IMG/VR virus record: IMGVR_UViG_3300017991_000457
Location: 1 to 20,191 of that record
Strand: one strand, 5' to 3'
Length of the DNA stretch: 20,191 nt
Source: a virus
Shown here: piece after piece, positions 6,413 to 19,921 of the stretch
How positions within the stretch are numbered: position 1 is the stretch's first letter
Layout: every line of letters starts with the position of its first letter
Made by a program: the position numbers and the translations under genes
Notes under the pieces: generated by a model
What the model was told of the DNA's origin: nothing
The model's input: the letters and a program-made list of their open reading frames with translations, nothing else
Database searches by the model: none

Positions 6413-7402
6413 TTAGCTGACAGTGGCTTCGGTGTTCAGAAGCGCGTCGGTCTTGCGGATGGGCACACCATCGATCGCGACAGACTTCTTACCGTACACC
6501 TCTTCCATGCTCAGACGCACGTTGGTGGTGTTCAGGATCTGACGGCGCAGATAGGAGGTGATGGTACGGTTCGCGTAGAACACGGTACGACCACGCATGC
6601 CCTTGACCTGCTCCAGCGCCTGAATCAACAGGTCAACCAGGTCCGCAGACGAGCCAGACTTGTCAGCGGTCAGGTCGGAGATGTCGATGTTCGCGATGCG
6701 AACGACATAGCGCCAGTCACGCAGGGTGAAACCGAGATCCCACTTGTAGTGAGTGCGGTAGCCCTGGTAGTAGCCGCCTGCGCCATCCTCGAGGGTGTCC
6801 TCGCCCAGGTCCTTGTGCTGCCAGCCAGCCTTGGAACCTTTCGGGTAGAACAAGTGGGCCACGTTCGGGTCCCAGTTGATCAGCCAGATGGAGGTGTTGT
6901 CAGAACCGGAACCACCACCAGAGATGATGTTCACGCCGTTCTCGGCGGACAGCGAGTTGAAGCGCGGGGCCAGGCCCATGAAGCGCTCAGGGTTCACGTC
7001 GGTGTCACCGTAGAACAGGGTGGAGGCCATCTCCTGGTTCATTGCTTCCAGGAACGCACGGTCCTCGGACAGACGGAACGCGGAGGTGTTGCCGTTCAGA
7101 TCGGCCAGGGCCTTATCCACTTCGGCGTATGCTTCCAGCATGCCTGCGGAGTCTTGGACCTGCGCGGTCTGAGACTTCGACTTCGCAACACCGTAGTTCA
7201 GCTTACGCCAGGTTGCGGACGGGAGGCCGGTACGAACAGTGGTACGGTGGCCAGTGGGAAGGTTGCCCTCTACGACAGTGGCGTCGTTGAGGATTTCGTT
7301 GTCTTCGTTGAGCATTTCAACGATGGTGCCAACCTTACCATCCGGGTCAGAGCGCTTTGCTACGTCAGCGTAGGTAGGGTTGTTGTTTCCGATAGTCGCC
7401 AT
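6413..7402 (-). CDS. Major capsid protein (BPP-1 Bbp17-like)
   Basis: A 329-residue protein that builds the icosahedral shell. It matches the podovirus major capsid family typified by BPP-1: N-terminal 'NNPTYADVAKRSDPDGKVGTIVEMLNEDNEILND', then 'LPTGHRTTVRTGLPSATWRKLNYGV', 'FYGDTDVNPERFMGLAPRFNS', and a C-terminal 'GRTVFYANRTITSYLRRQILNTTN...DGVPIRKTDALLN'. In BPP-1 this protein has a permuted HK97-like fold (established knowledge, not visible here). The ATG is preceded by AAGGAG at ideal distance, the best ribosome binding site of the structural block, which fits high output. Scaffold lies upstream and cement downstream. Confidence 0.93.
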   Translation of the reverse strand: MATIGNNNPTYADVAKRSDPDGKVGTIVEMLNEDNEILNDATVVEGNLPTGHRTTVRTGLPSATWRKLNYGVAKSKSQTAQVQDSAGMLEAYAEVDKALADLNGNTSAFRLSEDRAFLEAMNQEMASTLFYGDTDVNPERFMGLAPRFNSLSAENGVNIISGGGSGSDNTSIWLINWDPNVAHLFYPKGSKAGWQHKDLGEDTLEDGAGGYYQGYRTHYKWDLGFTLRDWRYVVRIANIDISDLTADKSGSSADLVDLLIQALEQVKGMRGRTVFYANRTITSYLRRQILNTTNVRLSMEEVYGKKSVAIDGVPIRKTDALLNTEATVS

Positions 7403-7426: not shown

Positions 7427-8161
7427 TCAGTTCATATCAGGGTACAGGGTTTTTGCGGGATCAGTTTCGCCTGAAGAGCCACCTTGTCCGGTGTGGAAGT
7501 TACCCTCCCCAGCGAGCTTCCCAACGCGGTAGAAGAAACGCACCAACTCTGGGTGATCGCCCAGGCCGGTCTGGTTAAGGACTTGACGCAACTCCGGGGA
7601 ACCGAACTCGTTGACCGCAGTGGCCACGTGTTTCATGTTCTCGTTGAAGGCTTGGCCTCCGAACTCCTCATCGTTGCGAGCGTCCTTGACCCACGTTTCA
7701 CGGGTTTCAGTCCAGGCTTTCTGCTGATCTTCCATCATCGACTTGACTTCCTTCGCGTGGAAGTCAACCAGCTCTTGTGCGTGCTCTTGGCTAAGGTCCC
7801 ACTCCTTCGCGAACTCCTGGAAAGATTCCAGGGCCTCGGGATTGATGTTGAATCCTTCGGGTACTTCAAAGTCTTCGTAGGATTCTGGGGCGCCTTCGTA
7901 CTCCTCTTCCCCGTCGCCCTCGCCTTCGCCTTCACCTTCACTGGGTTTGCCTTTATCACCAGGCTGCCCTTCGCCTGCGCCTTCGCCGCCCGCGTCGTCG
8001 GCTGCAGCGCCTCCATCCGGATTGCCGTCACCTGCAGCCCCGGAACCTTCCTCGACTCCACCAATCAAAGATCCACCAGCAGCTCCGGCGCCGTCGCCTT
8101 CGCCACCGGCTTCTTCGTCAAAAAGCGGAAACATGGAATCGTTAAGAATTTTCTGCCACAT
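7427..8161 (-). CDS. Head scaffolding protein
   Basis: A 244-residue, very acidic protein with two parts. Residues 1-100 are low complexity, rich in Gly, Glu, Ala and Asp (runs of GEG, GAG, DGG). Residues 100-244 are helical, with 'FQEFAKEWDLSQEHAQELVDFHAKEVK', 'DARNDEEFGGQAFNENMKHVATAVNEFGSPELRQVLNQTGLGDHPELVRFFYRVGKLAGE', the pattern of tailed-phage scaffolds encoded just before the capsid. It would guide capsid assembly and leave or be removed. ATG 8161 is preferred over ATG 8134: the former has GAGG about 9 bases upstream, the latter has no ribosome site. The gene overlaps the Bbp19-like gene by 20 bases. Confidence 0.85.
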   Translation of the reverse strand: MWQKILNDSMFPLFDEEAGGEGDGAGAAGGSLIGGVEEGSGAAGDGNPDGGAAADDAGGEGAGEGQPGDKGKPSEGEGEGEGDGEEEYEGAPESYEDFEVPEGFNINPEALESFQEFAKEWDLSQEHAQELVDFHAKEVKSMMEDQQKAWTETRETWVKDARNDEEFGGQAFNENMKHVATAVNEFGSPELRQVLNQTGLGDHPELVRFFYRVGKLAGEGNFHTGQGGSSGETDPAKTLYPDMN

Positions 8162-8435
8162 CGTTGTCTACCTCATCGTTTTCGTCTTGTGCTCGTGCTA
8201 TCGCTTCGCGTTCCATCAGTTGATAGGACGCCATGGCGTGCTCGTGAAGGTCAGCAATTAGCCGGAGCCCGATAGACCGGCGACCTTCGTTGAATGCGGT
8301 GTCAGTTGGTTCAGGTGCGTAGGATGATTGGAACACCCCACACATGGACAGGTGGTCCCACACCCAGGCCCTGCCGTCTTCAGTTTTCATCAGCGCCTGG
8401 ATGCGACGCCGCTCTGTGTTGTGATCAACGCTCAC
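8142..8435 (-). CDS. Bbp19-like protein
   Basis: A 97-residue protein with 'RRRIQALMKTEDGRAWVWDHLSMCGVFQSSYAPEPTDTAFNEGRRSIGLRLIADLHEH', the pattern of the Bbp19 family found beside the portal and scaffold genes of BPP-1-like phages. Its biochemical role is not established. It starts with GTG, overlapping the portal stop as GTGA, and has no clear Shine-Dalgarno sequence, so it is probably translated by coupling to the portal gene. The C-terminus is acidic (DENDEVDNDVAENS). Confidence 0.85.
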   Translation of the reverse strand: MSVDHNTERRRIQALMKTEDGRAWVWDHLSMCGVFQSSYAPEPTDTAFNEGRRSIGLRLIADLHEHAMASYQLMEREAIARAQDENDEVDNDVAENS

Positions 8436-10162
8436 TGCGGTTGACCCACACCAGGTTGGTTACCTACACCGGTGACCTGCTGCACGGCGTCAGCTACCAC
8501 GTTGCGCTCGTCAGTCTTGATCGATCCAGCTGCAGCGGCAGCCTTCGCGGACTCAGCCATCATGGCCATCTGCTTCTGCTGCTCAGCGGCTTCAGCACGA
8601 CCCTTGCGGATCTCCTCGACTTCATCGTCTTCACGGATCAGCTTCGGGGTGGTACCGATAGAGTCGGTGTACTCCTCGATAGCCTCGTCGAAGTTGAACT
8701 TGTCAAGTACACCCGGCGCCTCACCAGAGGCAGCTTGGATCTGCGCGAGTCCACCCAGGTAGGTGGCCGTGCGTTCCAGGGAGTTTATGGCGATGGCCTT
8801 CTGTGCTTGCGCCAGGATGGAGATGTACTCCACCTTCAGGTCCTGATCGTCCAACTCAGGCGGCGGAGGCGGGACCAAGCCAGCGCGCAATGCGATCTGG
8901 AAGACACGATCTATAACCGGATCAAGCAGCTCGTCTTCCAGGCGTTCAAGCACCGGGCCAAGCATGATCAGCTTCTCTTCATGACGCTCCTCGATCTCAC
9001 GAGCGGTGATCTCACGGCGATCGGAACGCGCCAACATGAGGAACAGATCCTCGTAGAACGCACGACTGATGCGGTGCTTAGTCTCTGCGATGTCTTCAAT
9101 GAGGTTGCGCAGGTCGAATTGTACGTTGAACGCTGGTTCGAATCCGCGCATGCCCTGCTGGCCGTCGTAATAGGTTACGCCGCCAGGTACGGTAGTTTTG
9201 TGCGTGTGGCGCAACGCGGTCGGTGCCACCATTGGCGGACGCACCTGCTTGTGAATGCCTTCACCCTTCCAGCGCTGCATGGTCTGCAACTGAACAACAT
9301 CACCGAGGGCGTCCATGCCAGGTGAGGCTCCATACGTGTCGGTTCCGTTCACGTCCCAACGAGGGGCAACGAACGGTTTCTCCTGGAAGCCATTGAGCTG
9401 CAAGATCGGGTAGTCGGTCGTGTCACCGCGCTTCTCCCAGTATACGGAGCGCCACGGTTTGTCTGCCACGAACCCAGACTCTGGCCCGTCATACCCAAGG
9501 TCGTCCAGGTTTGGCTCGAGTGCATGGCGAACGGTCACCGGTTGGTTGTAGTTCCCGTTCTCATACTGCTGTTTGACCGAGGCGCTAACGCGCTTAAGGC
9601 CAAACTTCTCGACTACCATCTTTGCCGTCATCGGGATGTCACGGTAGATCGTGTCAACCTGCAGATTAGCGCCAAGGCCAAGAGCGTACGAACCGACAGT
9701 TATCGGGAATCCACGAATCACGTCATCGTAGTCCGTGATGATGTTCGCAGGTGCTGTGCCAAACACGCCTATCTCTTTGTACACGGTGTGCAGCGTGTTG
9801 TATAAGTTCGAGCGTGCCAGGATCTCGCGAAGGCGGATCTCCACGGCGTAGAGCCAGTCACGGACAGGTCCGTACTGCTTCATTTCCGGGTCAGGCGTAT
9901 CAAGGCGGAACCACGGCCGGGCCGGAGACGTTAGCCCGGCCATCATTCCAGACGCAAGGGTTCGAGCGGCCAGGGTGCCGCTGTTGTCGATGATGTTGTT
10001 GTGCCTCTTGGTACCGTCATTCCGATCGGTATCGAGGAAGCGTCCGCGGCGCGGCAGGATGTTCTCTTGAAGCTCCTTCCAGTGACCAATGTAGCTGGAA
10101 CGGTCCTTCTCAAGCTCTGTCATGCGCTTGTTCAGGCGGACTCTGAGATCTGTTTCAGCCAC
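8432..10162 (-). CDS. Portal protein (head-tail connector, T7 gp8-like)
   Basis: A 576-residue protein forming the dodecameric portal through which DNA is packaged. Typical family features are N-terminal 'RLNKRMTELEKDRSSYIGHWKELQENILPRRGRFL', then 'IIDNSGTLAARTLASGMMAGLTSPARPWFRL', 'NLYNTLHTVYKEIGVFGTAP', and a helical stem with 'RSDRREITAREIEERHEEKLIMLGPVLERLEDELLDPVIDRVF'. The C-terminus is Gln/Ala/Gly-rich. The start is GTG 10162: the N-terminal match to portals supports it, and the first ATG (10123) would remove conserved residues. A weak GGGGA lies about 9 bases upstream. It overlaps the preceding small gene by 8 bases. Confidence 0.93.
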   Translation of the reverse strand: MAETDLRVRLNKRMTELEKDRSSYIGHWKELQENILPRRGRFLDTDRNDGTKRHNNIIDNSGTLAARTLASGMMAGLTSPARPWFRLDTPDPEMKQYGPVRDWLYAVEIRLREILARSNLYNTLHTVYKEIGVFGTAPANIITDYDDVIRGFPITVGSYALGLGANLQVDTIYRDIPMTAKMVVEKFGLKRVSASVKQQYENGNYNQPVTVRHALEPNLDDLGYDGPESGFVADKPWRSVYWEKRGDTTDYPILQLNGFQEKPFVAPRWDVNGTDTYGASPGMDALGDVVQLQTMQRWKGEGIHKQVRPPMVAPTALRHTHKTTVPGGVTYYDGQQGMRGFEPAFNVQFDLRNLIEDIAETKHRISRAFYEDLFLMLARSDRREITAREIEERHEEKLIMLGPVLERLEDELLDPVIDRVFQIALRAGLVPPPPPELDDQDLKVEYISILAQAQKAIAINSLERTATYLGGLAQIQAASGEAPGVLDKFNFDEAIEEYTDSIGTTPKLIREDDEVEEIRKGRAEAAEQQKQMAMMAESAKAAAAAGSIKTDERNVVADAVQQVTGVGNQPGVGQPQ

Positions 10163-10882: not shown

Positions 10883-10906
10883 TCAAGAATCATTCTCACC
10901 TGTCAA
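10877..10906 (-). promoter_or_regulatory. Putative promoter of the structural block
   Basis: On the minus strand TTGACA (10906-10901) is followed 18 bases later by an extended -10, TGA-TAAGGT (TAAGGT at 10882-10877), about 30 bases before the first structural ATG. The -35 overlaps the stop codon of the large terminase. The -10 is weak (T1, A2 and T6 of TATAAT match) but has the TGn extension. The 16 bases from TAAGGT onward are identical to those in front of the early block at 19936-19951, which strongly suggests function. Confidence 0.6.
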
Positions 10907-10918
10907 TGAGAATTGTTC
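10887..10918. promoter_or_regulatory. Operator-like palindromes at the structural promoter
   Basis: Two GAANNNTTC palindromes, GAATCATTC at 10887-10895 and GAATTGTTC at 10910-10918, flank the -35 box. In addition ATTCTC (10892-10897) and GAGAAT (10908-10913) form an inverted repeat around TTGACA. One GAANNNTTC site (19996-20004) lies upstream of the matching early promoter. The placement suits a regulator that blocks or assists RNA polymerase; the protein is not identified. Confidence 0.45.
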
Positions 10919-12546
10919 GTATAAGGGTCATAGTCGTCGGGTATGGTGGTCTCTACGCCGTGCTGAATCCCAACCCTGTGTAACTTGTGTCGCGTGTGGT
11001 CGTCGCGCTTCTGAACATCGATGGCCGCCATGCACACCGCATCAGACCTGTCCGGTGAGCGTCCGATCTCATCCTTGACCTTGTCCTTACCCCACACCAG
11101 GATGCCGTTGGCATTGAGCTGGAACTTGTGTGCTGCCAGCTCTGCCATGAGGTCGTCATCTGGGGGTAGGGCGATGCCGGTCTCGTTGTTTGGGTCGAGC
11201 AGCCAGCGCAGGTGCCAGTACATGTACGCGCGCTTGTTGGCGAACCTCAGTCCATCGATCATGCCAGGGGCACGCTCTGAGTTGTTCCACCCGATCATGT
11301 GCAGACCCTGGAGGTTTCCGATGTCGACAACACTGCTACCGATGCCGATGATGTCGGTGTTCACCGGGGCGTCGTCTTGGCGCTCTGCAACGATCAGGCT
11401 GACCACAGTCTGGCCGTCTGGGGTGGCGCCGCCGGGGTACAACTTCAGCTCGTCGAACCACAGGTCCTCGTACTTGGGGGCGATGACCGTGTTGTCCATG
11501 CCGCCTCGCGCCGGGTCCACACCCATGACCAGCATCTCGCCTTTGGCCTTCTTGGTGGTCTTCTTCTCCCAGCGATCCTGGGCTGCCACGATCCAGTTGG
11601 TTGGGATGACCTGGTACGGGTCGTCATCACTGAAGGCGTTGAAGTCGCCCTTCAGCATCTGTGAGCGCAAAGGCTCTGGCAGCGACTGAAGCTGCTGTTT
11701 GTATCCTGTAGCCATGTAGACGGGGTTATCCTCAACCTTGGAAGGGATGAATGTCAGCGATCGCGGAATGATGACCTCCCCGTCCGCATCGATCTGCGGC
11801 TCTGGTTCAAGGAGAAACTTCATCGCACCGTTATCGTCGCGATAGTAGTAGGCCAGCTCACCTGGCTCGACTTTGTTGTACAGGGGGTTGTTCCGATCCA
11901 ACCAGGGTCCCCAGTATTTCTTGACCCACAAACCCTCTGGCCGTGTCGGCGGGTTTCCCGTGGCCACGGTGCGCACGCGCTGCTTGGGGTCTGACGAGCG
12001 CTTCCAGCCGTTGAGGAAGTTGTACTGCGCCTCGATGAAGTGGGTGATCTCGTCGAACCCCTTCAGGTCGTGCGGGCGGCCCTGATACTTTTCCTCGGAA
12101 CCTGGGTCCTTCACAGCCCCGAATTCGATCAGCTTGCCATCATGTTTCCAGATCTTGTCCTGGCCGCTGTACCCGTTGCGGTCCCCGATGATCTGGCTCA
12201 TTCGCTGGAGGATGCCCACCAGCTGGGTTGCTTCACGACGGTAGATGATCGTGTGCTGGTGCTGGGTCAGTGAGAGCCCGATCAACAGGTCAGACTTACC
12301 ACCACCAGCGGCACCGCCGTAGAACAGCTCGTCCGCCTTGCAGTGCAGCGCCTGGATCTGTGGCCCAGGGAAGGGCTCCCAGATGGCCATGCCGATGTTG
12401 AACATGTCCTCGATCAGGAGCAGGTCCTCACCGCTGAAGGCGTCAGGGTACTTTTCCAGGGCGTCGTATACCACGCGCTGGGCCTGTGTATCCCTGCCAT
12501 CCTCGACAAGGCGCATGGCCTTTTGGAGCATCTTGACTACATCCAA
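10903..12546 (-). CDS. Terminase large subunit
   Basis: A 547-residue DNA packaging motor. The N-terminal ATPase has Walker A GGAAGGGKS at residues 77-85, Walker B ending FDE at 164-166 (LKGFDEITHF), and a coupling motif TGNPP at 196-200. The C-terminal RNase H-like nuclease begins at MLVMGVDPARGG, with catalytic Asp344, and has a late acidic site DRSDAVCMAA. The protein cuts concatemers and pumps DNA through the portal. The start is TTG 12546: GGGAG lies 7 bases upstream, while ATG 12531 has no ribosome site. It overlaps the small terminase by 10 bases. Its stop codon lies inside the downstream promoter. Confidence 0.95.
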   Translation of the reverse strand: MDVVKMLQKAMRLVEDGRDTQAQRVVYDALEKYPDAFSGEDLLLIEDMFNIGMAIWEPFPGPQIQALHCKADELFYGGAAGGGKSDLLIGLSLTQHQHTIIYRREATQLVGILQRMSQIIGDRNGYSGQDKIWKHDGKLIEFGAVKDPGSEEKYQGRPHDLKGFDEITHFIEAQYNFLNGWKRSSDPKQRVRTVATGNPPTRPEGLWVKKYWGPWLDRNNPLYNKVEPGELAYYYRDDNGAMKFLLEPEPQIDADGEVIIPRSLTFIPSKVEDNPVYMATGYKQQLQSLPEPLRSQMLKGDFNAFSDDDPYQVIPTNWIVAAQDRWEKKTTKKAKGEMLVMGVDPARGGMDNTVIAPKYEDLWFDELKLYPGGATPDGQTVVSLIVAERQDDAPVNTDIIGIGSSVVDIGNLQGLHMIGWNNSERAPGMIDGLRFANKRAYMYWHLRWLLDPNNETGIALPPDDDLMAELAAHKFQLNANGILVWGKDKVKDEIGRSPDRSDAVCMAAIDVQKRDDHTRHKLHRVGIQHGVETTIPDDYDPYTNNSH

Positions 12547-12995
12547 TCGTCTTCTCCCTCGGGCTCCACCTCGACCTTCTCGTATTCGCCCTCAATGGCG
12601 TTGATCTGCTTCTCCTCCATGCTCGCCAGCAGCCTGGCCATCAGTACCTTGCGCTCAGGGTTCTCGACCTCTCGCTTGGTCATGTCAACGGCCTGCTCGG
12701 TGCGATCTTTCCAGTTCTCCGGGTCCAGGTTCTTCAGCTGGAATGCGATGTTGTTCTCCTCGCAATACTTCATGACCTTGAGCCTGGCCGTGTCCAGCAC
12801 GTGCTTGAAGTCCTCACCGTCGTACCCCTCGTACTTCTTCAGGGCGGTGAGGCTGGAGAATCCCAGGTGTAGCGCCAGGCCCGACAGTGTTGGCCTGCCA
12901 GGCGTCTCGCCCCCGGGCTCGTAACCCTCGAAATACTCGTCAGCGTGTTTCTGCATCAGGCTGGCTGACTGGTACCGTCTACGCTGCAGTGCCAT
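12537..12995 (-). CDS. Terminase small subunit
   Basis: A 152-residue protein that recognises phage DNA and activates the large subunit. The central pattern 'TLSGLALHLGFSSLTALKKYEGYDGEDFKHVLDTARLKVMKYCEEN' is a helix-turn-helix of the small terminase type. It is followed by 'NNIAFQLKNLDPENWKDRTEQ', the usual 'AIFALKN.GW.DK' motif of this family. The C-terminus is acidic (EYEKVEVEPEGEDD), as often seen for contact with the large subunit. The ATG has GAGG 7 bases upstream. The gene overlaps both the adenosyltransferase gene (17 bases) and the large terminase (10 bases). Confidence 0.9.
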   Translation of the reverse strand: MALQRRRYQSASLMQKHADEYFEGYEPGGETPGRPTLSGLALHLGFSSLTALKKYEGYDGEDFKHVLDTARLKVMKYCEENNIAFQLKNLDPENWKDRTEQAVDMTKREVENPERKVLMARLLASMEEKQINAIEGEYEKVEVEPEGEDDWM

Positions 12996-13488
12996 TCCAA
13001 TACCTCGGCTTCACAGGTCCAATGTGGATGGCCAGGATGTACAACACATCCGACAGCCGGTTGATGTACTTCAGGGTATCGTGGTCGATCTGAACGCCAG
13101 GCCCTGTGGCGGCCAGCATCTGTCGCTCCACACGTCGTGCGATTGCTCTCGCCAGGTGTAGCGTCCCTGACGTTCTGCCCTCCGGGATGATGAAGCCCTC
13201 CAGGGGCTCCTCGTACTGGTCGATCAGCCGCTCCAGGTATTGTACGTCGCCATCGTTGATGTACACCTTGCCGGTGTACAACTGGGCGCCAATATCCAGC
13301 AGCTGGTTTTGGATGGCGATAAGGTGCTTGCCCACCTCAAGGTTGAACAAGTCGCCAACGGCCATCCCGATGGCCGCGTTGAGCTCGTCCAGGGTGCCCA
13401 CCACCTCGCAGAATGCGCTGTCCTTGAGCACCCTCCCGCTTGGCCCGTCAGTCATGCCGGAGTCACCGGTCTTAGTGCATACGCTCAT
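12979..13488 (-). CDS. ATP:cob(I)alamin adenosyltransferase, PduO type
   Basis: A 169-residue enzyme that transfers the adenosyl group of ATP to cob(I)alamin, making adenosylcobalamin. PduO-family motifs are present: TKTGDSGMT at residues 5-13 (ATP-binding TxxGDxGxT), GRVLKD (18-23), GTLDELNAAIG (31-41), FIIPEG (99-104), LARAIARRVERQM (112-124) and the base-on cobalamin motif NRLSD (143-147). The loop after TxxGDxGxT is one residue shorter than usual and reads DGPSGR rather than SLFGGxR, so activity should be tested. ATG 13488 is chosen because GGGAG lies 8 bases upstream and the motif begins at once. It overlaps the 32-residue membrane protein stop (ATGA). It lies next to a B12-dependent reductase, its obvious client. 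Confidence 0.9.
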   Translation of the reverse strand: MSVCTKTGDSGMTDGPSGRVLKDSAFCEVVGTLDELNAAIGMAVGDLFNLEVGKHLIAIQNQLLDIGAQLYTGKVYINDGDVQYLERLIDQYEEPLEGFIIPEGRTSGTLHLARAIARRVERQMLAATGPGVQIDHDTLKYINRLSDVLYILAIHIGPVKPRYWNGTAA

Positions 13489-13583
13489 CGCTTCATCTCC
13501 CGCACGTAGATGCGCCAGGCCAGGAACAGAATGAGTAGTCCCCAGAAAATGTCCACCACAGTCATGATGTCCCAATGCGTCAT
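13485..13583 (-). CDS. Single-pass membrane microprotein, 32 residues
   Basis: A very short gene. It opens at ATG 13583 behind a strong GGGAGG and ends at TGA 13485-13487, overlapping the adenosyltransferase ATG as ATGA. The product has a polar N-terminus (MTHWDIM), a hydrophobic segment of about 19 residues (VVDIFWGLLILFLAWRIYV) and a basic end (REMKR). By the positive-inside rule the C-terminus would face the cytoplasm. A good ribosome site, exact coupling to the next gene and the clear membrane helix argue that it is real. The role is unknown; holin-like, host-membrane or complex-tethering functions are all possible. Confidence 0.7.
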   Translation of the reverse strand: MTHWDIMTVVDIFWGLLILFLAWRIYVREMKR

Positions 13584-13591
13584 AAATCCTC

Positions 13592-13662
13592 CCGTACGGG
13601 GCTAAATGCCCCGCAATGTGTCAGAAAAGCTGCGTGTTTTTACCGTACGGGGCAAGCCCCGC
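13592..13662. repeat. Duplicated GC-rich hairpin between reductase and microprotein
   Basis: The sequence CCGTACGGGGC followed by a short loop and GCCCCGC occurs twice in the same orientation: 13592-13614 (loop TAAAT) and 13643-13662 (loop AA). Both are perfect GGGGC/GCCCC stem-loops. The second encodes the last residues of the reductase, the first lies just before the ribosome site of the microprotein. No T-run follows either one. Confidence 0.75.
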
Positions 13663-15601
13663 CGGCACACTCCTGGTCCTCGAGCTCGTCGAAGCTGTTG
13701 GCCGCGTCGATGTCCACCGGCTGCAGTTGGTCAACATACTCGTCATAAACCTCCTTGGTGACCACTTCCTGGGGGAGGTACACGTAGCCCAGGTCCTTGG
13801 CCGTCTTGGTCGGGTCGTTGCGGTACAGGAAGCTCACGCCGACGTAGATGTCCCAGTTTGTGAGCAGCCAGGTGATGATGTCTGGCACCTCGTCCGGGCT
13901 GTAGCTGATGGTTGCGCTGACGTTCTGGTGGCACCAGTTCTCCTGCAGCATCTTGTACCGGTCCAGCTGGTCCACAGCGCTTTCGAGGTTCACTTCCTTG
14001 CCGTCCACCTTGTCGAACGGCACATCAGCCCACTCAACGGGCAGGGTGATCAGCACGCCGCTGGAGTCGGTTGGGTGGTCGAACACCCGATAGCCGGCGG
14101 CACGCATCTTGGCCACCAGGGGGTCGTGCTTGCTGAACATGACGTTGTTGAAGATGTACCGGCCCAGGGGCTTGTGCTTGCCCTCTGTGGTGTCCATCAC
14201 CTTGGACAGGGTGCCAGATGGCTTGATGGTGGTCACGTTCTTCGGGCGTGGCATGTCCAGCTCGTCCGCCATGCTGTAGGCGGCGTGGGTGGACTCGCGC
14301 TCCAGGGCCTTGTAGTCGTATGGACCCATGTCTGGGCGTCGGGCGATACCTGTCAGCCCCACACCGCACAGGCGCAGGAAGTCGTTGTTCAGGTGCCAGG
14401 CCTCCTGGAGGATGCCGTCCTTGAGGTTGACGCAGGTCTGGCGGTAGTTCGCTCGTGCTGCAATGTACGCGGCGCGGTGCAGGCCCGCGGTGTCCCCGTG
14501 GAACTTGCCAATGTCGATCTCGACGAGGTTGCAGAAGGTCTTGTTGCCCAGCAGGATCTCAGCGCACGGGTTGGTCCCCTTGTGCCAGGGAGCACGCTTG
14601 CGGGATGCCTCGGCGTTGATGAAGCCTGGCTCTGACCCGCCGGCGTCCATCATCATGTCGAAGATCTCCTCGAGCTCTGAACGCTCTGGCTTGTCGAAGA
14701 ACATCAGGCTGTTGTTGGACATCGCCCGCTGCGGGTTGCCCTCCCACCAGTCCTTCTTGGCAACAGCGAACTCGCGCCACTCCTCTTCCCCGTACACGTG
14801 CAACGCGATCTCGGCACTGCGGCGGGAGGACAGGATGGTGCCCATCCAGTTGACAACGTCCAGGATGTCGATGCGGGTCAGCAGGCTGCCGGCTCGCTTG
14901 GACAGGATGGCCGCTATGGCCGGGTAGGCGTTGGCGATCTGCTCGTCACCACTGGAGATCCAGCCGTATCCCTTGAGGCGCTCACCTGCAGGGCGTATCT
15001 GGCTCAGGTCGATGATCAGCTTGTCAGCCGGGTACTTGCCAGCCAGGAGCTTGCCGATCGACTTGGCCCAGGCCTCCGCGGAGTCACCGATCGCGATGGT
15101 CCAGGTCTTGGTCTCCGGATCCCAGGTCTCGACATTATGCTCGTTGCCGCCCTTGCCCTCTCGGGTGGAGCGGATGACCTGGACGTCCTTGATCGGCTTG
15201 GCGAAGCCGGTCAGCTGGCCCACGATAGGGCGGAAGCCGACGCCGGTGCCTTGCAGCAGCAGCCACAGCACGTCCACCGCATCGTACACGGTCTCCACGT
15301 GGGTGAAGCTGCAGTTGAACTGTGAAGACTCGCGTTCCTTGGCGACGTCTGTGCCACCCAGCCACAGGGTGCGACCGGATACTGAGATCTTGCGTTCGAT
15401 CATCAGCTGGCGCAGCTCCTCCAGCTCGTCCTTCTGGTGGCTGGTCAGGCGTGCACCCTTGGCCCGCTCCCACAGCCAGCGCTGGTGGTGGATGACGCGG
15501 TCAACGGTATCGGACCAGGTCTCGAATTTGTCCCCAGACTCGTCCAGGGGTCGGTTGTACGTGCGCCGGGTTACGACTTGTGCGCGGATGCTTGGTTCCA
15601 T
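13640..15601 (-). CDS. nrdJ: Adenosylcobalamin-dependent ribonucleotide reductase (class II)
   Basis: A 653-residue monomeric class II reductase of the Lactobacillus leichmannii RTPR type, which makes deoxynucleotides with adenosylcobalamin as radical source and needs no oxygen or second subunit. The catalytic set is complete. Cys97 in FNCSF and Cys357 in TFCNLVEI form the active-site pair. Asn344, Cys346 (thiyl radical) and Glu348 lie in NPCAEI. The Cys346-Cys357 spacing of 11 equals RTPR Cys408-Cys419. C-terminal Cys645 and Cys650 match the shuttle pair Cys731/Cys736. It is shorter than RTPR (739). The ATG has AGAGGA upstream. It feeds phage DNA synthesis and sits upstream of the adenosyltransferase. 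Confidence 0.95.
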   Translation of the reverse strand: MEPSIRAQVVTRRTYNRPLDESGDKFETWSDTVDRVIHHQRWLWERAKGARLTSHQKDELEELRQLMIERKISVSGRTLWLGGTDVAKERESSQFNCSFTHVETVYDAVDVLWLLLQGTGVGFRPIVGQLTGFAKPIKDVQVIRSTREGKGGNEHNVETWDPETKTWTIAIGDSAEAWAKSIGKLLAGKYPADKLIIDLSQIRPAGERLKGYGWISSGDEQIANAYPAIAAILSKRAGSLLTRIDILDVVNWMGTILSSRRSAEIALHVYGEEEWREFAVAKKDWWEGNPQRAMSNNSLMFFDKPERSELEEIFDMMMDAGGSEPGFINAEASRKRAPWHKGTNPCAEILLGNKTFCNLVEIDIGKFHGDTAGLHRAAYIAARANYRQTCVNLKDGILQEAWHLNNDFLRLCGVGLTGIARRPDMGPYDYKALERESTHAAYSMADELDMPRPKNVTTIKPSGTLSKVMDTTEGKHKPLGRYIFNNVMFSKHDPLVAKMRAAGYRVFDHPTDSSGVLITLPVEWADVPFDKVDGKEVNLESAVDQLDRYKMLQENWCHQNVSATISYSPDEVPDIITWLLTNWDIYVGVSFLYRNDPTKTAKDLGYVYLPQEVVTKEVYDEYVDQLQPVDIDAANSFDELEDQECAGGACPVR

Positions 15602-17432: not shown

Positions 17433-17588
17433 TTCCCCGTTTGGGGGGGAATGAATGGGGGAACCCCCTAAAGGGGATTCTCCCCCAATTCTCCGTTTCG
17501 TTCTCCGTTTTGTTCCCCGTTCACTGAATCACGTTATAAATCAATCACTTAAACGGGGAATTCTCCGTTATTCCCCGTTTTCCCCGTT
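17433..17588. repeat. Iteron-like repeat array TTCYCCGTT
   Basis: Seven direct copies of TTCYCCGTT start at 17433, 17489, 17501, 17513, 17561, 17571 and 17580, and one inverted copy (AACGGGGAA) lies at 17552-17560. Three are spaced exactly 12 bases apart (17489, 17501, 17513). The last three are 9-10 bases apart and run into the 3' end of the primase-helicase gene, where they encode its NGENGE end. Regularly spaced 9-mers beside a replication gene are the classic form of an iteron origin. Confidence 0.8.
17461..17551. other. Candidate replication origin: AT-rich stretch and G/C hairpins
   Basis: Inside the iteron array, 17522-17551 is about 70% A+T in an otherwise GC-rich genome. It is bounded by inverted copies of the 9-mer (17513-17521 and 17552-17560), as expected of a duplex unwinding element. 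Just to the left, 17455-17490 holds overlapping inverted repeats (GGGGGAACCCCC, CCCCTAAAGGGG, GGGGATTCTCCCC) that could form hairpins as single strands. There is no gene between 17367 and 17567. The alternative reading is a transcription attenuator for the downstream genes. Confidence 0.5.
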
Positions 17589-19574
17589 CAAGGCCAATTT
17601 CACCACCTGATGAGCCCCGTTTTCCGCCACCTCGAAGTGCTTGAACAGGTGTTGTTTTGCACGTTTGCGGTGATGCTTCTGCATGGCAAAAGACTCCTCG
17701 CCGTGGTGCTCGGCAACCCAGGCGCCCATCACAGAATTGTACTGACCCTGGTTCAAATCCGTGTTCCCGCACTCGATCAGTTTGTCACGCATGGCCTGTT
17801 CCAGCTCGACCAGGTCAGCTGCGTAGCTGTCCTCGGCTTTGACGTCCACATCCAGGTAAGGGGCAGACTCGGGTCCGAACTCAGTCTCCATGCCCGTGGC
17901 GATCGTCTTCAGGATGAACTGCTTGTGCCAGCCGAAGGATCCCAGGGAGCGCTGCTTGCTGCACTCGACAGTCCTGGCTGAGCCCTCGCCCTTGCTGACC
18001 CAGAACTGGGTGTCCAGGTCACCTTCGATGACGCCGGATCCACGAGACTTCTGGCCGGTCAGGGCGCCGCCCTTGGGTGGGTGGTGGATGTGCATCATGT
18101 GGCACTTTGTCTTGGCCACCAGGCCGCGCAGCGTCATCACCAGGGCGCCCACCCTTTCCTCGTCAGAGGTGGACATGCCGGGGGTTGCGGCGGCCAGGGT
18201 GTCGACCACGATCAGGCCAGGCTTCAGGTCCATGTACACCGGCAGCAGCCAATTCATCCAGGCCTGGGGATCCGTCAGCGGTGGGATCTCATGACCTTTA
18301 CCAGGTAGCACGTGAAAGTTCGATGGCAGCTGGCGACCCAGGGCACGCCAGGCACGTACACGCTGGGCCATCGCGCTCAGGCCTTCGTACGCCAGGTACA
18401 GCACCGGGGCGGGCTTCACGCGGTGGCCGAAAACCTTCTGGCCGGTGGCCACGGCGTAGGCCATCTCCATGGCAAAGAAGGTCTTGCCAGCACCAGGCTC
18501 GCCCGACACCTGGCTGGTCTGGCCGCGCGCGATCAGGTCCTCGATCAGCTGCTTGGGTGGTGGCGTGTGTGCCAGGTCCAACAGTGTCGGGATGTGCGAC
18601 GCCTCGTCGGCAGGCTCAGGATCATCAGGTACAGACTCGAAACCCTCCAGGACCTCGTCATCGTCCAGGTCCGGGAAGTCCTCAGCTGATGCCGGCTTGC
18701 TGGTTGGCTTGATGCGGATGCCCTGTGCCTTGGCCATGTCGAAGATGGTCCGCAGGGTGATCTCGCGGCCGGCGCCCTTGCCGAATCCGTGCCATTTACC
18801 ATCCAGCTCAGAGGCCTCATAGTTGGGCAGCTCAGCACTGGCCTTGTGCCAGATCTCGAGCCCCCGGTACTCGCCCTCAAACTGGTGGTGCAGCGCCATG
18901 CCCAGGTCCAGCCAGGGCTTGTAGCCGATCATCTCCGGGTCACGCTGGCACAGCTCGACGCAGATTCGCTCGATGTCCTCGTCATCGTCCTGGACCGGCT
19001 CCTCGGTGTACTCACCCACCTCCGGGCGGACCTTGTCCAGTGCCTCCAGCAGCCCCTTGGAGGTGTGCTGGCCAACCGTCTCGAACCCCTCCAGCACCTG
19101 GCCCGTGAAGGTCACAAACCGGCCTGACTCCTGGGTGTACACTTCCAGGCCACGTTCATGATTAATGAACGCGCCACAATCTGACATGACGACAGCCCGG
19201 AGGCCTCGCCCGCTGGGGCTGACCTCAACGTAACCCGCATGCTGGGCGATGTCCCAGGCCCACGCGTCCGGACCCTCCTCGTCGCTGTAGCACTTGTCGA
19301 AGTCCAGGATGGTGATGTCCTTGTGGAACCCGGTCATCACGAAGCCGACACCCGAGAAGCCGCCCTCCTCATATGCACGCGCAGCGTCCTTGAACGACAT
19401 CCAGGTGTGGGGCTTGTTCACCGCCGCCATGCTGCCGTTGCGCTGCACTGGCTGTTTGGCCACACGGCCATCGTCCATCACCTTGGCACGCCACACGACC
19501 CACCTCTTCTCGCGGGTGAGCTCCGGCGGCATGTTCTCGAACAGGGGCTCGAGGCCCCACCCGATATTGGACAT
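17568..19574 (-). CDS. Primase-polymerase/RepA-like helicase fusion
   Basis: A protein of 668 residues (672 if ATG 19586 is used; numbering below follows that). Residues 25-170 resemble an archaeo-eukaryotic primase (PrimPol): acidic pair in ILDFD (Asp95, Asp97), then SPSGRGLRAV and GRFVTFTG. The usual His after SGxG is Arg here. Residues 205-295 fit a PriCT domain (WLDLGMALHHQFEG...WHGFGKG). Residues 345-560 form a RepA/KaiC-like ATPase: Walker A GEPGAGKT (362-369), Walker B LIVVD (458-462), then HIHHPPKGG. The end looks like a winged helix. It would prime and unwind at the adjacent origin. ATG 19574 has GGGAG close upstream, ATG 19586 has no ribosome site but overlaps the preceding stop. 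Confidence 0.88.
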   Translation of the reverse strand: MSNIGWGLEPLFENMPPELTREKRWVVWRAKVMDDGRVAKQPVQRNGSMAAVNKPHTWMSFKDAARAYEEGGFSGVGFVMTGFHKDITILDFDKCYSDEEGPDAWAWDIAQHAGYVEVSPSGRGLRAVVMSDCGAFINHERGLEVYTQESGRFVTFTGQVLEGFETVGQHTSKGLLEALDKVRPEVGEYTEEPVQDDDEDIERICVELCQRDPEMIGYKPWLDLGMALHHQFEGEYRGLEIWHKASAELPNYEASELDGKWHGFGKGAGREITLRTIFDMAKAQGIRIKPTSKPASAEDFPDLDDDEVLEGFESVPDDPEPADEASHIPTLLDLAHTPPPKQLIEDLIARGQTSQVSGEPGAGKTFFAMEMAYAVATGQKVFGHRVKPAPVLYLAYEGLSAMAQRVRAWRALGRQLPSNFHVLPGKGHEIPPLTDPQAWMNWLLPVYMDLKPGLIVVDTLAAATPGMSTSDEERVGALVMTLRGLVAKTKCHMMHIHHPPKGGALTGQKSRGSGVIEGDLDTQFWVSKGEGSARTVECSKQRSLGSFGWHKQFILKTIATGMETEFGPESAPYLDVDVKAEDSYAADLVELEQAMRDKLIECGNTDLNQGQYNSVMGAWVAEHHGEESFAMQKHHRKRAKQHLFKHFEVAENGAHQVVKLALNGENGE

Positions 19575-19585
19575 AGTGGCTCCCA

Positions 19586-19921
19586 TCAGTGCCGCACCAC
19601 GTTTTCTGGCACGACCTCTTGTTCTCCATCATCGGCCATCAGGGCGGCGATCGTGTCTGTGGCGCACATAACGTAACCACCCAGCCAGCCCAGGAACAGG
19701 TTCGCGTCCAGGGATTCACCGTTTACAATCATTCGCTTGATCGTGAGTTCGAATTCTGTCCCCGGTCCGTACACCAGCTCCACCCCGAGCATCTGCACCG
19801 GGTCGTCCAGGTCTTCCCTGGTAGCGGCTCCAGACAGCACAGAAAGCTCGATCGTGCCATCAGGGCACACGGAAGCCAGAGCCCCAGACGCCAGGCTGTG
19901 GGCTTGTTCTATCGTGATCAT
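19586..19921 (-). CDS. First gene of the leftward early block, function unknown
   Basis: A 111-residue acidic protein, with β-rich segments (GTIELSVLSG, VQMLGVELVYGPGTEFELTIKRMIVNGE) followed by a helical part (LDANLFLGWLGGYVMCATDTIAALMADDG). I do not recognise a family. The ribosome site is excellent, AAGGAG 6-7 bases before the ATG, and the gene begins about 18 bases after the expected transcript start of the leftward promoter, so it should be made early and in quantity. Its stop overlaps the upstream ATG candidate of the primase-helicase. Confidence 0.75.
   Translation of the reverse strand: MITIEQAHSLASGALASVCPDGTIELSVLSGAATREDLDDPVQMLGVELVYGPGTEFELTIKRMIVNGESLDANLFLGWLGGYVMCATDTIAALMADDGEQEVVPENVVRH

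Follow-up and report, generated by a model that had tools for sequence, protein, structure and literature searches.

The window analysed here is the whole of a 20,191-nt stretch of virus DNA (IMGVR_UViG_3300017991_000457), in which the minus strand carries all genes, and it contains two neighbouring genes, nrdJ and a gene for an ATP:cob(I)alamin adenosyltransferase (ACA), that probably form a phage unit for supplying coenzyme B12. The upstream gene, nrdJ (13640-15601, minus strand), encodes a 653-residue monomeric class II, adenosylcobalamin-dependent, ribonucleoside-triphosphate reductase (RTPR). It matches the RTPR profile TIGR02505 over its full length (residues 7-653) with 613 bits against a cut-off of 340, and phrog_367 with 574 bits, and its sole match in the PDB is the Lactobacillus leichmannii RTPR (1l1l). 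The N-P-C-x-E active site, the partner cysteine and the C-terminal C-x4-C pair are kept; the segments NPCAE, TFCNL, QFNC and ECAGGAC align to 1l1l and are invariant across our alignment A6. By family criteria the gene is confirmed as an intact class II RTPR.

Downstream on the same strand lies a PduO-type ACA of 169 residues counted from its ATG (12979-13488, minus strand). The longer, 198-residue frame (12979-13575) scores 133.1 bits against PF01923 (cut-off 24; E 1e-38, far beyond chance) and 133 bits against the TIGR00636 PduO_Nterm equivalog (cut-off 108.45). All 20 invariant residues of the family, as defined by an alignment of 37 ACAs from bacteria and viruses, are retained, among them the ATP motif T-x-T-G-D-x-G-x-T (T5, T7, G8, D9, G11 and T13), and the catalytic Asp, Arg and Glu are in place, with D34, F99, R118 and E121 at the corresponding positions. 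Going by the roles ascribed to these residues and by the titles of the PDB entries, we take their counterparts to be D35, F112 and R132 in the L. reuteri enzyme and R190 and E193 in the human one. An AlphaFold model (pLDDT 91) adopts the five-helix bundle fold of PduO, and its top 50 Foldseek matches are mostly PduO-type ACAs and designed derivatives of these (TM about 0.8), including PduO ACAs crystallised with ATP and adenosylcobalamin. Sequence and predicted fold together confirm the product as an intact PduO-type ACA. An earlier reading of this DNA (the original prediction) had placed a complete adenosylcobalamin-dependent reductase here with a PduO-type ACA downstream on the same strand, and both identifications are borne out.

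The distance from the nrdJ stop to the ATG at 13488 is exactly 151 bases. This ATG is the better of the ACA starts, with GGGAG 8 bases ahead of it and the family alignment opening about 3 residues after it, and the coordinates and 151-base spacing of the original prediction are right if translation starts there. That account had missed a small frame within this gap and the overlaps at both ends of the ACA gene. Inside the gap sits a putative coding frame of 32 codons (13485-13583, minus strand), translated as MTHWDIMTVVDIFWGLLILFLAWRIYVREMKR followed by a stop and predicted to be a single-pass membrane peptide; it is preceded by GGGAGGATTT, with a Shine-Dalgarno sequence of its own, GGGAGG, and its TGA overlaps the ACA start codon (ATGA). 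At the other end, the ACA gene overlaps the start of terS, the small terminase gene (12537-12995, minus strand; GP3_package, PF16677, 34 bits), by 17 bases, so that the ACA is built into the operon on both sides. The same arrangement occurs in a second IMG/VR record with 99.9% DNA identity over 11 kb and is therefore no accident of assembly. A direct repeat, GCCCCGTACGG, is present in two minus-strand copies, one over the end of nrdJ (13643-13653) and one before the 32-codon frame (13592-13602). Each copy is preceded by GGGGC, and the two bracket the nrdJ stop. The repeat could be the scar of an insertion; at least two matches arise in 10 of 100 shuffled sequences, which makes for weak statistics taken alone.

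The same adjacency recurs in other viruses. Scanning IMG/VR with an ACA alignment gave 346 viral contigs that carry a PduO-type ACA, and a second query gave 301; 80 loci were kept from each, and the pairing counts rest on the 93 unique viral ACA genes that these contain. An RTPR lies immediately upstream on the same strand, with at most one gene between, in 44 of the 93, that is, in 44 of the 72 with enough context; 28 have at least 3 kb upstream and no RTPR there, and the remaining 21 are cut short. The gap is about 22 bases, or 510-915 bases where a gene intervenes. These paired RTPRs form one family, 62-76% identical among representatives and about 26% identical to the RTPR of the window. 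In the representatives examined the surroundings are those of phages: portal, head maturation protease and tail genes occur among the reading frames of L088 and L106, and L039 is flanked by WhiB, an integrase and a dCMP deaminase of phage type. At least four more records have an ACA and another RTPR far apart in one genome, and the three of these distant RTPRs that were placed on the tree belong to a third deep lineage. ACA and RTPR thus co-occur in three deep RTPR lineages and are adjacent in two. Beside bacterial ACAs an RTPR was found at none of 80 loci (flanks of about 4 kb), a search that did not test for dimeric NrdJ. That the ACA might partner a reductase of class I or of the dimeric class II type was considered and rejected, as PF02867 gave only weak, RTPR-type matches over 45 ACA records; nor did any CobA/BtuR-type ACA (PF02572) exceed the cut-off in 46 RTPR virus records. 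Elsewhere among the viral genes, the ACA of the L053 group (7983-8570) lies inside a phage replication module with UvsX, DnaB and a polymerase, and those of L072, L073, L096 and their relatives have sugar and DUF1501 genes around them, with two such ACAs in a single 221-kb record; these contigs, of at least 200 kb, could belong to a giant phage or be bacterial DNA.

The recurring cassettes usually hold a third gene, for a protein of about 150 residues whose hydrophobic N terminus would leave it membrane-anchored or secreted (L088:7400-7849, L106:7397-7849 and, in L039, downstream of the ACA; 45 distinct homologues in alignment A8). It lies between RTPR and ACA in 31 loci and right after the ACA in 10. 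When loci were anchored on the RTPR and had full context, the gene was present in 5 of 5 with an ACA and in 0 of 48 without one, counts that are uncorrected for kinship; one shorter ACA-positive locus also carries it, making 6 of 6. Its AlphaFold model (pLDDT 85) is closest in fold to the bacterial protein 3u7z and to the beta domains of three cobalamin carriers, transcobalamin, intrinsic factor and haptocorrin (Z scores of 9.6-10.3 over 93-99 residues); the best unrelated fold reaches 7.4. None of the 45 members matches Pfam, including DUF4430, up to E 10, and we therefore file the protein as alike in fold only and not as a member of that family. An isolated human beta domain has been solved with cyanocobalamin (5np4), and capture of cobalamin by the modelled phage protein is plausible.

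How the pair came together can be approached through the nearest relatives of the window virus, which by terminase identity are the IMG/VR records L352 (75%) and L353 (67%). Both carry an RTPR in the same slot (L352:1064-3121 and L353:5025-7097), 73% identical to each other and only 26-27% identical to the NrdJ of the window, and both lack an ACA; the stop of the RTPR gene adjoins terS directly. This free junction indicates that the ACA and the 32-codon frame were added in the lineage of the window. The RTPR of the window groups instead with those of oyster Zobellviridae, Roseobacter and Sinorhizobium phages (57-72% identical). On this sequence comparison the window lineage exchanged its reductase and received the small frame and the ACA exactly between nrdJ and terS. 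In the ACA tree (INDEPENDENCE), sequences from Alphaproteobacteria and Phycisphaera are the near neighbours of the cluster formed by the other viral ACAs; the window ACA, which has the longest branch of all, lies outside. None of 200 bootstrap trees (0%) gives the viral ACAs, that of the window included, a single origin, and the AU (approximately unbiased) p is 0.04 when the window ACA is forced together with the six clustered viral representatives. One origin for all is thus disfavoured, with the long window branch keeping the rejection from being firm, and two separate origins are favoured by the tree, not proven. That two ACAs should separately land right behind an RTPR by random insertion is unlikely, the chance being, by a rough estimate, a few per cent per event.

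Taken together, we consider it probable that nrdJ and the ACA act as a cofactor-supply unit of the phage, in which cobalamin is adenosylated locally so that the RTPR is not limited by the adenosylcobalamin of the host. An RTPR works only with adenosylcobalamin bound, and loss of the adenosyl group can turn this cofactor into cob(II)alamin. In the proposed mechanism, NrdJ would reduce ribonucleotides to deoxyribonucleotides with roughly one bound adenosylcobalamin per active enzyme, and a phage making much RTPR quickly may outrun the host coenzyme, above all in B12 scavengers. The ACA, presumably active and translated from the same transcript, would bind ATP and reduced cobalamin (salvaged cob(I)alamin or cob(II)alamin), transfer the 5'-deoxyadenosyl group and so form adenosylcobalamin beside the reductase, to which it might be handed over directly; it would also re-adenosylate cofactor lost as cob(II)alamin and thereby refill the pool. 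The deoxynucleotide output of the phage would then be limited by total cobalamin and no longer by the adenosylcobalamin pool of the host, to the presumed benefit of the infection. More tentatively, phages may repeatedly have assembled a self-contained B12 kit from an RTPR, an ACA and a transcobalamin-like capture protein, anchored in the membrane or secreted. Such a kit would make DNA synthesis independent of coenzyme B12 production by the host and would open up hosts that scavenge B12, and the window would represent a version cut down to two enzymes and put together independently. We regard this broader picture as possible, and hold it with less than even confidence.

Several observations weigh against a cofactor-supply unit. 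Pairing with an ACA is a minority trait, found in 6 of the 72 close kin of the L088 RTPR for which context was available, and most RTPR phages have no ACA at all, which implies that host adenosylcobalamin usually suffices. The paired viruses other than that of the window are one related group, so the number of independent events is about two; for some viral ACAs the 3 kb upstream contain no RTPR, no reductase was detected in the (often incomplete) records of the L053 and L072 groups, and the window has no transcobalamin-like gene. The window ACA itself departs from the family at near-invariant sites, with Cys for Tyr4, Ile for Arg154 and one residue missing before His111, and sits on a branch of length 1.65; with such a branch and such losses its activity is not certain. 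The original prediction, which had suggested that the phage secures its own cofactor supply, had named as one opposing outcome that the genes be rarely neighbours and only coincidentally so. Rare they are, as the records of the 17 nearest RTPR relatives of the window hold no ACA (0 of 17) and the L088 relatives few. Coincidence is the part that does not hold: the pairing recurs in viruses unrelated to this one, whose RTPR is very different, whose ACA is placed separately and which usually have a transcobalamin-like protein, a pattern that chance explains poorly. The supply proposal is partly supported, by intact genes that overlap in one transcription direction and by this recurrence, and is qualified by the rarity of the pair among RTPR viruses.

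The same evidence bears on what else the ACA might be doing. A bacterial gene picked up by chance beside nrdJ and without function in the phage would account for its presence, within its RTPR clade, in a single virus known from two near-identical records and for its absence from the nearest phage relatives and most RTPR phages. Such a passenger would hardly be expected to keep its reading frame and active-site residues intact along so long a branch, with the closest bacterial sequence only 43% identical and hence no close donor, or to overlap its neighbours on both sides in an adjacency that also arose with a different RTPR lineage, and we think it unlikely. Adenosylcobalamin also controls riboswitches, and an ACA could raise its level so as to switch those of the host or to feed host B12 enzymes, with NrdJ playing no part. 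The viral ACAs in records without a detected reductase would fit such a role, which we nevertheless rate as improbable: the ACA is adjacent to and co-oriented with an RTPR in two distinct virus groups, and in the window no other B12 gene was found and an Rfam scan aimed at the cobalamin riboswitch matched no family. Finally, PduO-type ACAs hold and deliver adenosylcobalamin, and the protein might serve mainly as a chaperone or scavenger that binds and hands over corrinoids, or makes use of incomplete ones, with little net catalysis. The changed near-invariant residues of the window ACA and the linked transcobalamin-like protein of other phages are compatible with this, whereas retention of the TKTGDxGxT motif and of the catalytic Asp, Arg and Glu speaks for a catalyst, and we rate a role mainly as carrier as very improbable. 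A supply of adenosylcobalamin to NrdJ is thus the reading we prefer.

The remaining genes of the window place the pair between replication and packaging, in the transcription order primase-helicase, small reading frames, nrdJ, ACA, terS, terL, portal, major capsid protein and tail proteins. The primase-helicase (17568-19586; PriCT_2 and AAA_25 profile matches) starts the replication side of the module. It is followed beyond the pair by terL, the large terminase (10903-12546; phrog_979 and phrog_2), the portal (8432-10162; 43-45% identical to BPP-1, epsilon15 and phiV10-like phages) and the major capsid protein (6413-7402; 66% identical to Bordetella phage BPP-1), all on the minus strand. The portal, capsid and terminase set of the BPP-1/epsilon15-like group occurs in one array (PF12236, 525 bits; PF20911, 476 bits), and judged by these genes the virus is a BPP-1/epsilon15-like podovirus, a tailed phage. 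A tRNA scan of the window found none.

Among catalogued phage genomes, 1,190 INPHARED records match the RTPR of the window. Matches to the ACA are confined to 15 records, and the 8 opened proved to be contigs of bacterial or unverified nature that had been filed under phages; one, from Acinetobacter, is 254 kb long and carries trp, btuB and baeSR. We rejected them as phage ACAs, and no genuine cultured phage with an ACA was found among these 8 of 15. OR846747, OR846749, OR851203, PQ520108, CAKLQH020000002 and others, all filed as phages, have the look of bacterial contigs or contain bacterial genes for an ACA, and a search for metabolic genes of phages could be misled by such records.

Viral RTPRs are well described (PMC6370689, PMC6459318, PMC10547690, PMC12918982) and ubiquitous (PMC10547690). 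In the ocean, where they abound, viruses with a class II reductase have been read as markers of B12-making hosts, RTPR phages being held to need hosts able to synthesise cobalamin (PMC6775973). Neither PMC10547690 nor PMC6775973 mentions an adenosyltransferase, and the passages found of PMC12918982 mention no cobalamin adenosyltransferase; a wastewater study names a cobA-type ACA in its list of viral auxiliary metabolic genes, without context (PMC11183165). We found no description of an nrdJ-ACA pair in the open-access literature. If our proposal is true, host inference from a viral class II reductase fails for phages carrying an ACA, and cofactor activation, possibly with capture, joins the viral replication toolkit. 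The unit is small enough to be tested in vitro and offers a lead on why phages choose one reductase class over another.

Compared with PduO-type ACAs of known structure (PF01923; Bacillus cereus 3ke5, human MMAB 6d5k and L. reuteri 3ci1), the window ACA shares the fold, 30-39% identity and the invariant catalytic residues. Unlike these it is phage-encoded; its C-terminal tail is short, the stretch before the HxAR helix is shorter by one residue, Ile replaces Arg154, and the gene adjoins nrdJ and terS in place of pdu or cob genes. The Roseobacter SIO1/CRP phages, Sinorhizobium phage phiM12 and the oyster Zobellviridae phages ('cobaviruses', PMC6775973) have, along with the kindred reductase described above, the same set of catalytic cysteines; unlike in the window, no adenosyltransferase adjoins it. 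The third protein of the other cassettes has the predicted beta-domain fold of transcobalamin, intrinsic factor and the DUF4430-type 3u7z, as a stand-alone domain behind a hydrophobic N terminus and without the alpha-barrel domain of transcobalamin. The L088, L106 and L039 cassettes that carry it differ from the window in this addition and in the sequence of their enzymes, with the RTPR about 26% and the ACA about 40% identical and the ACA close in sequence to Candidatus Planktophila, but their order is that of the window, an RTPR followed on the same strand by an ACA with at most one gene between them.

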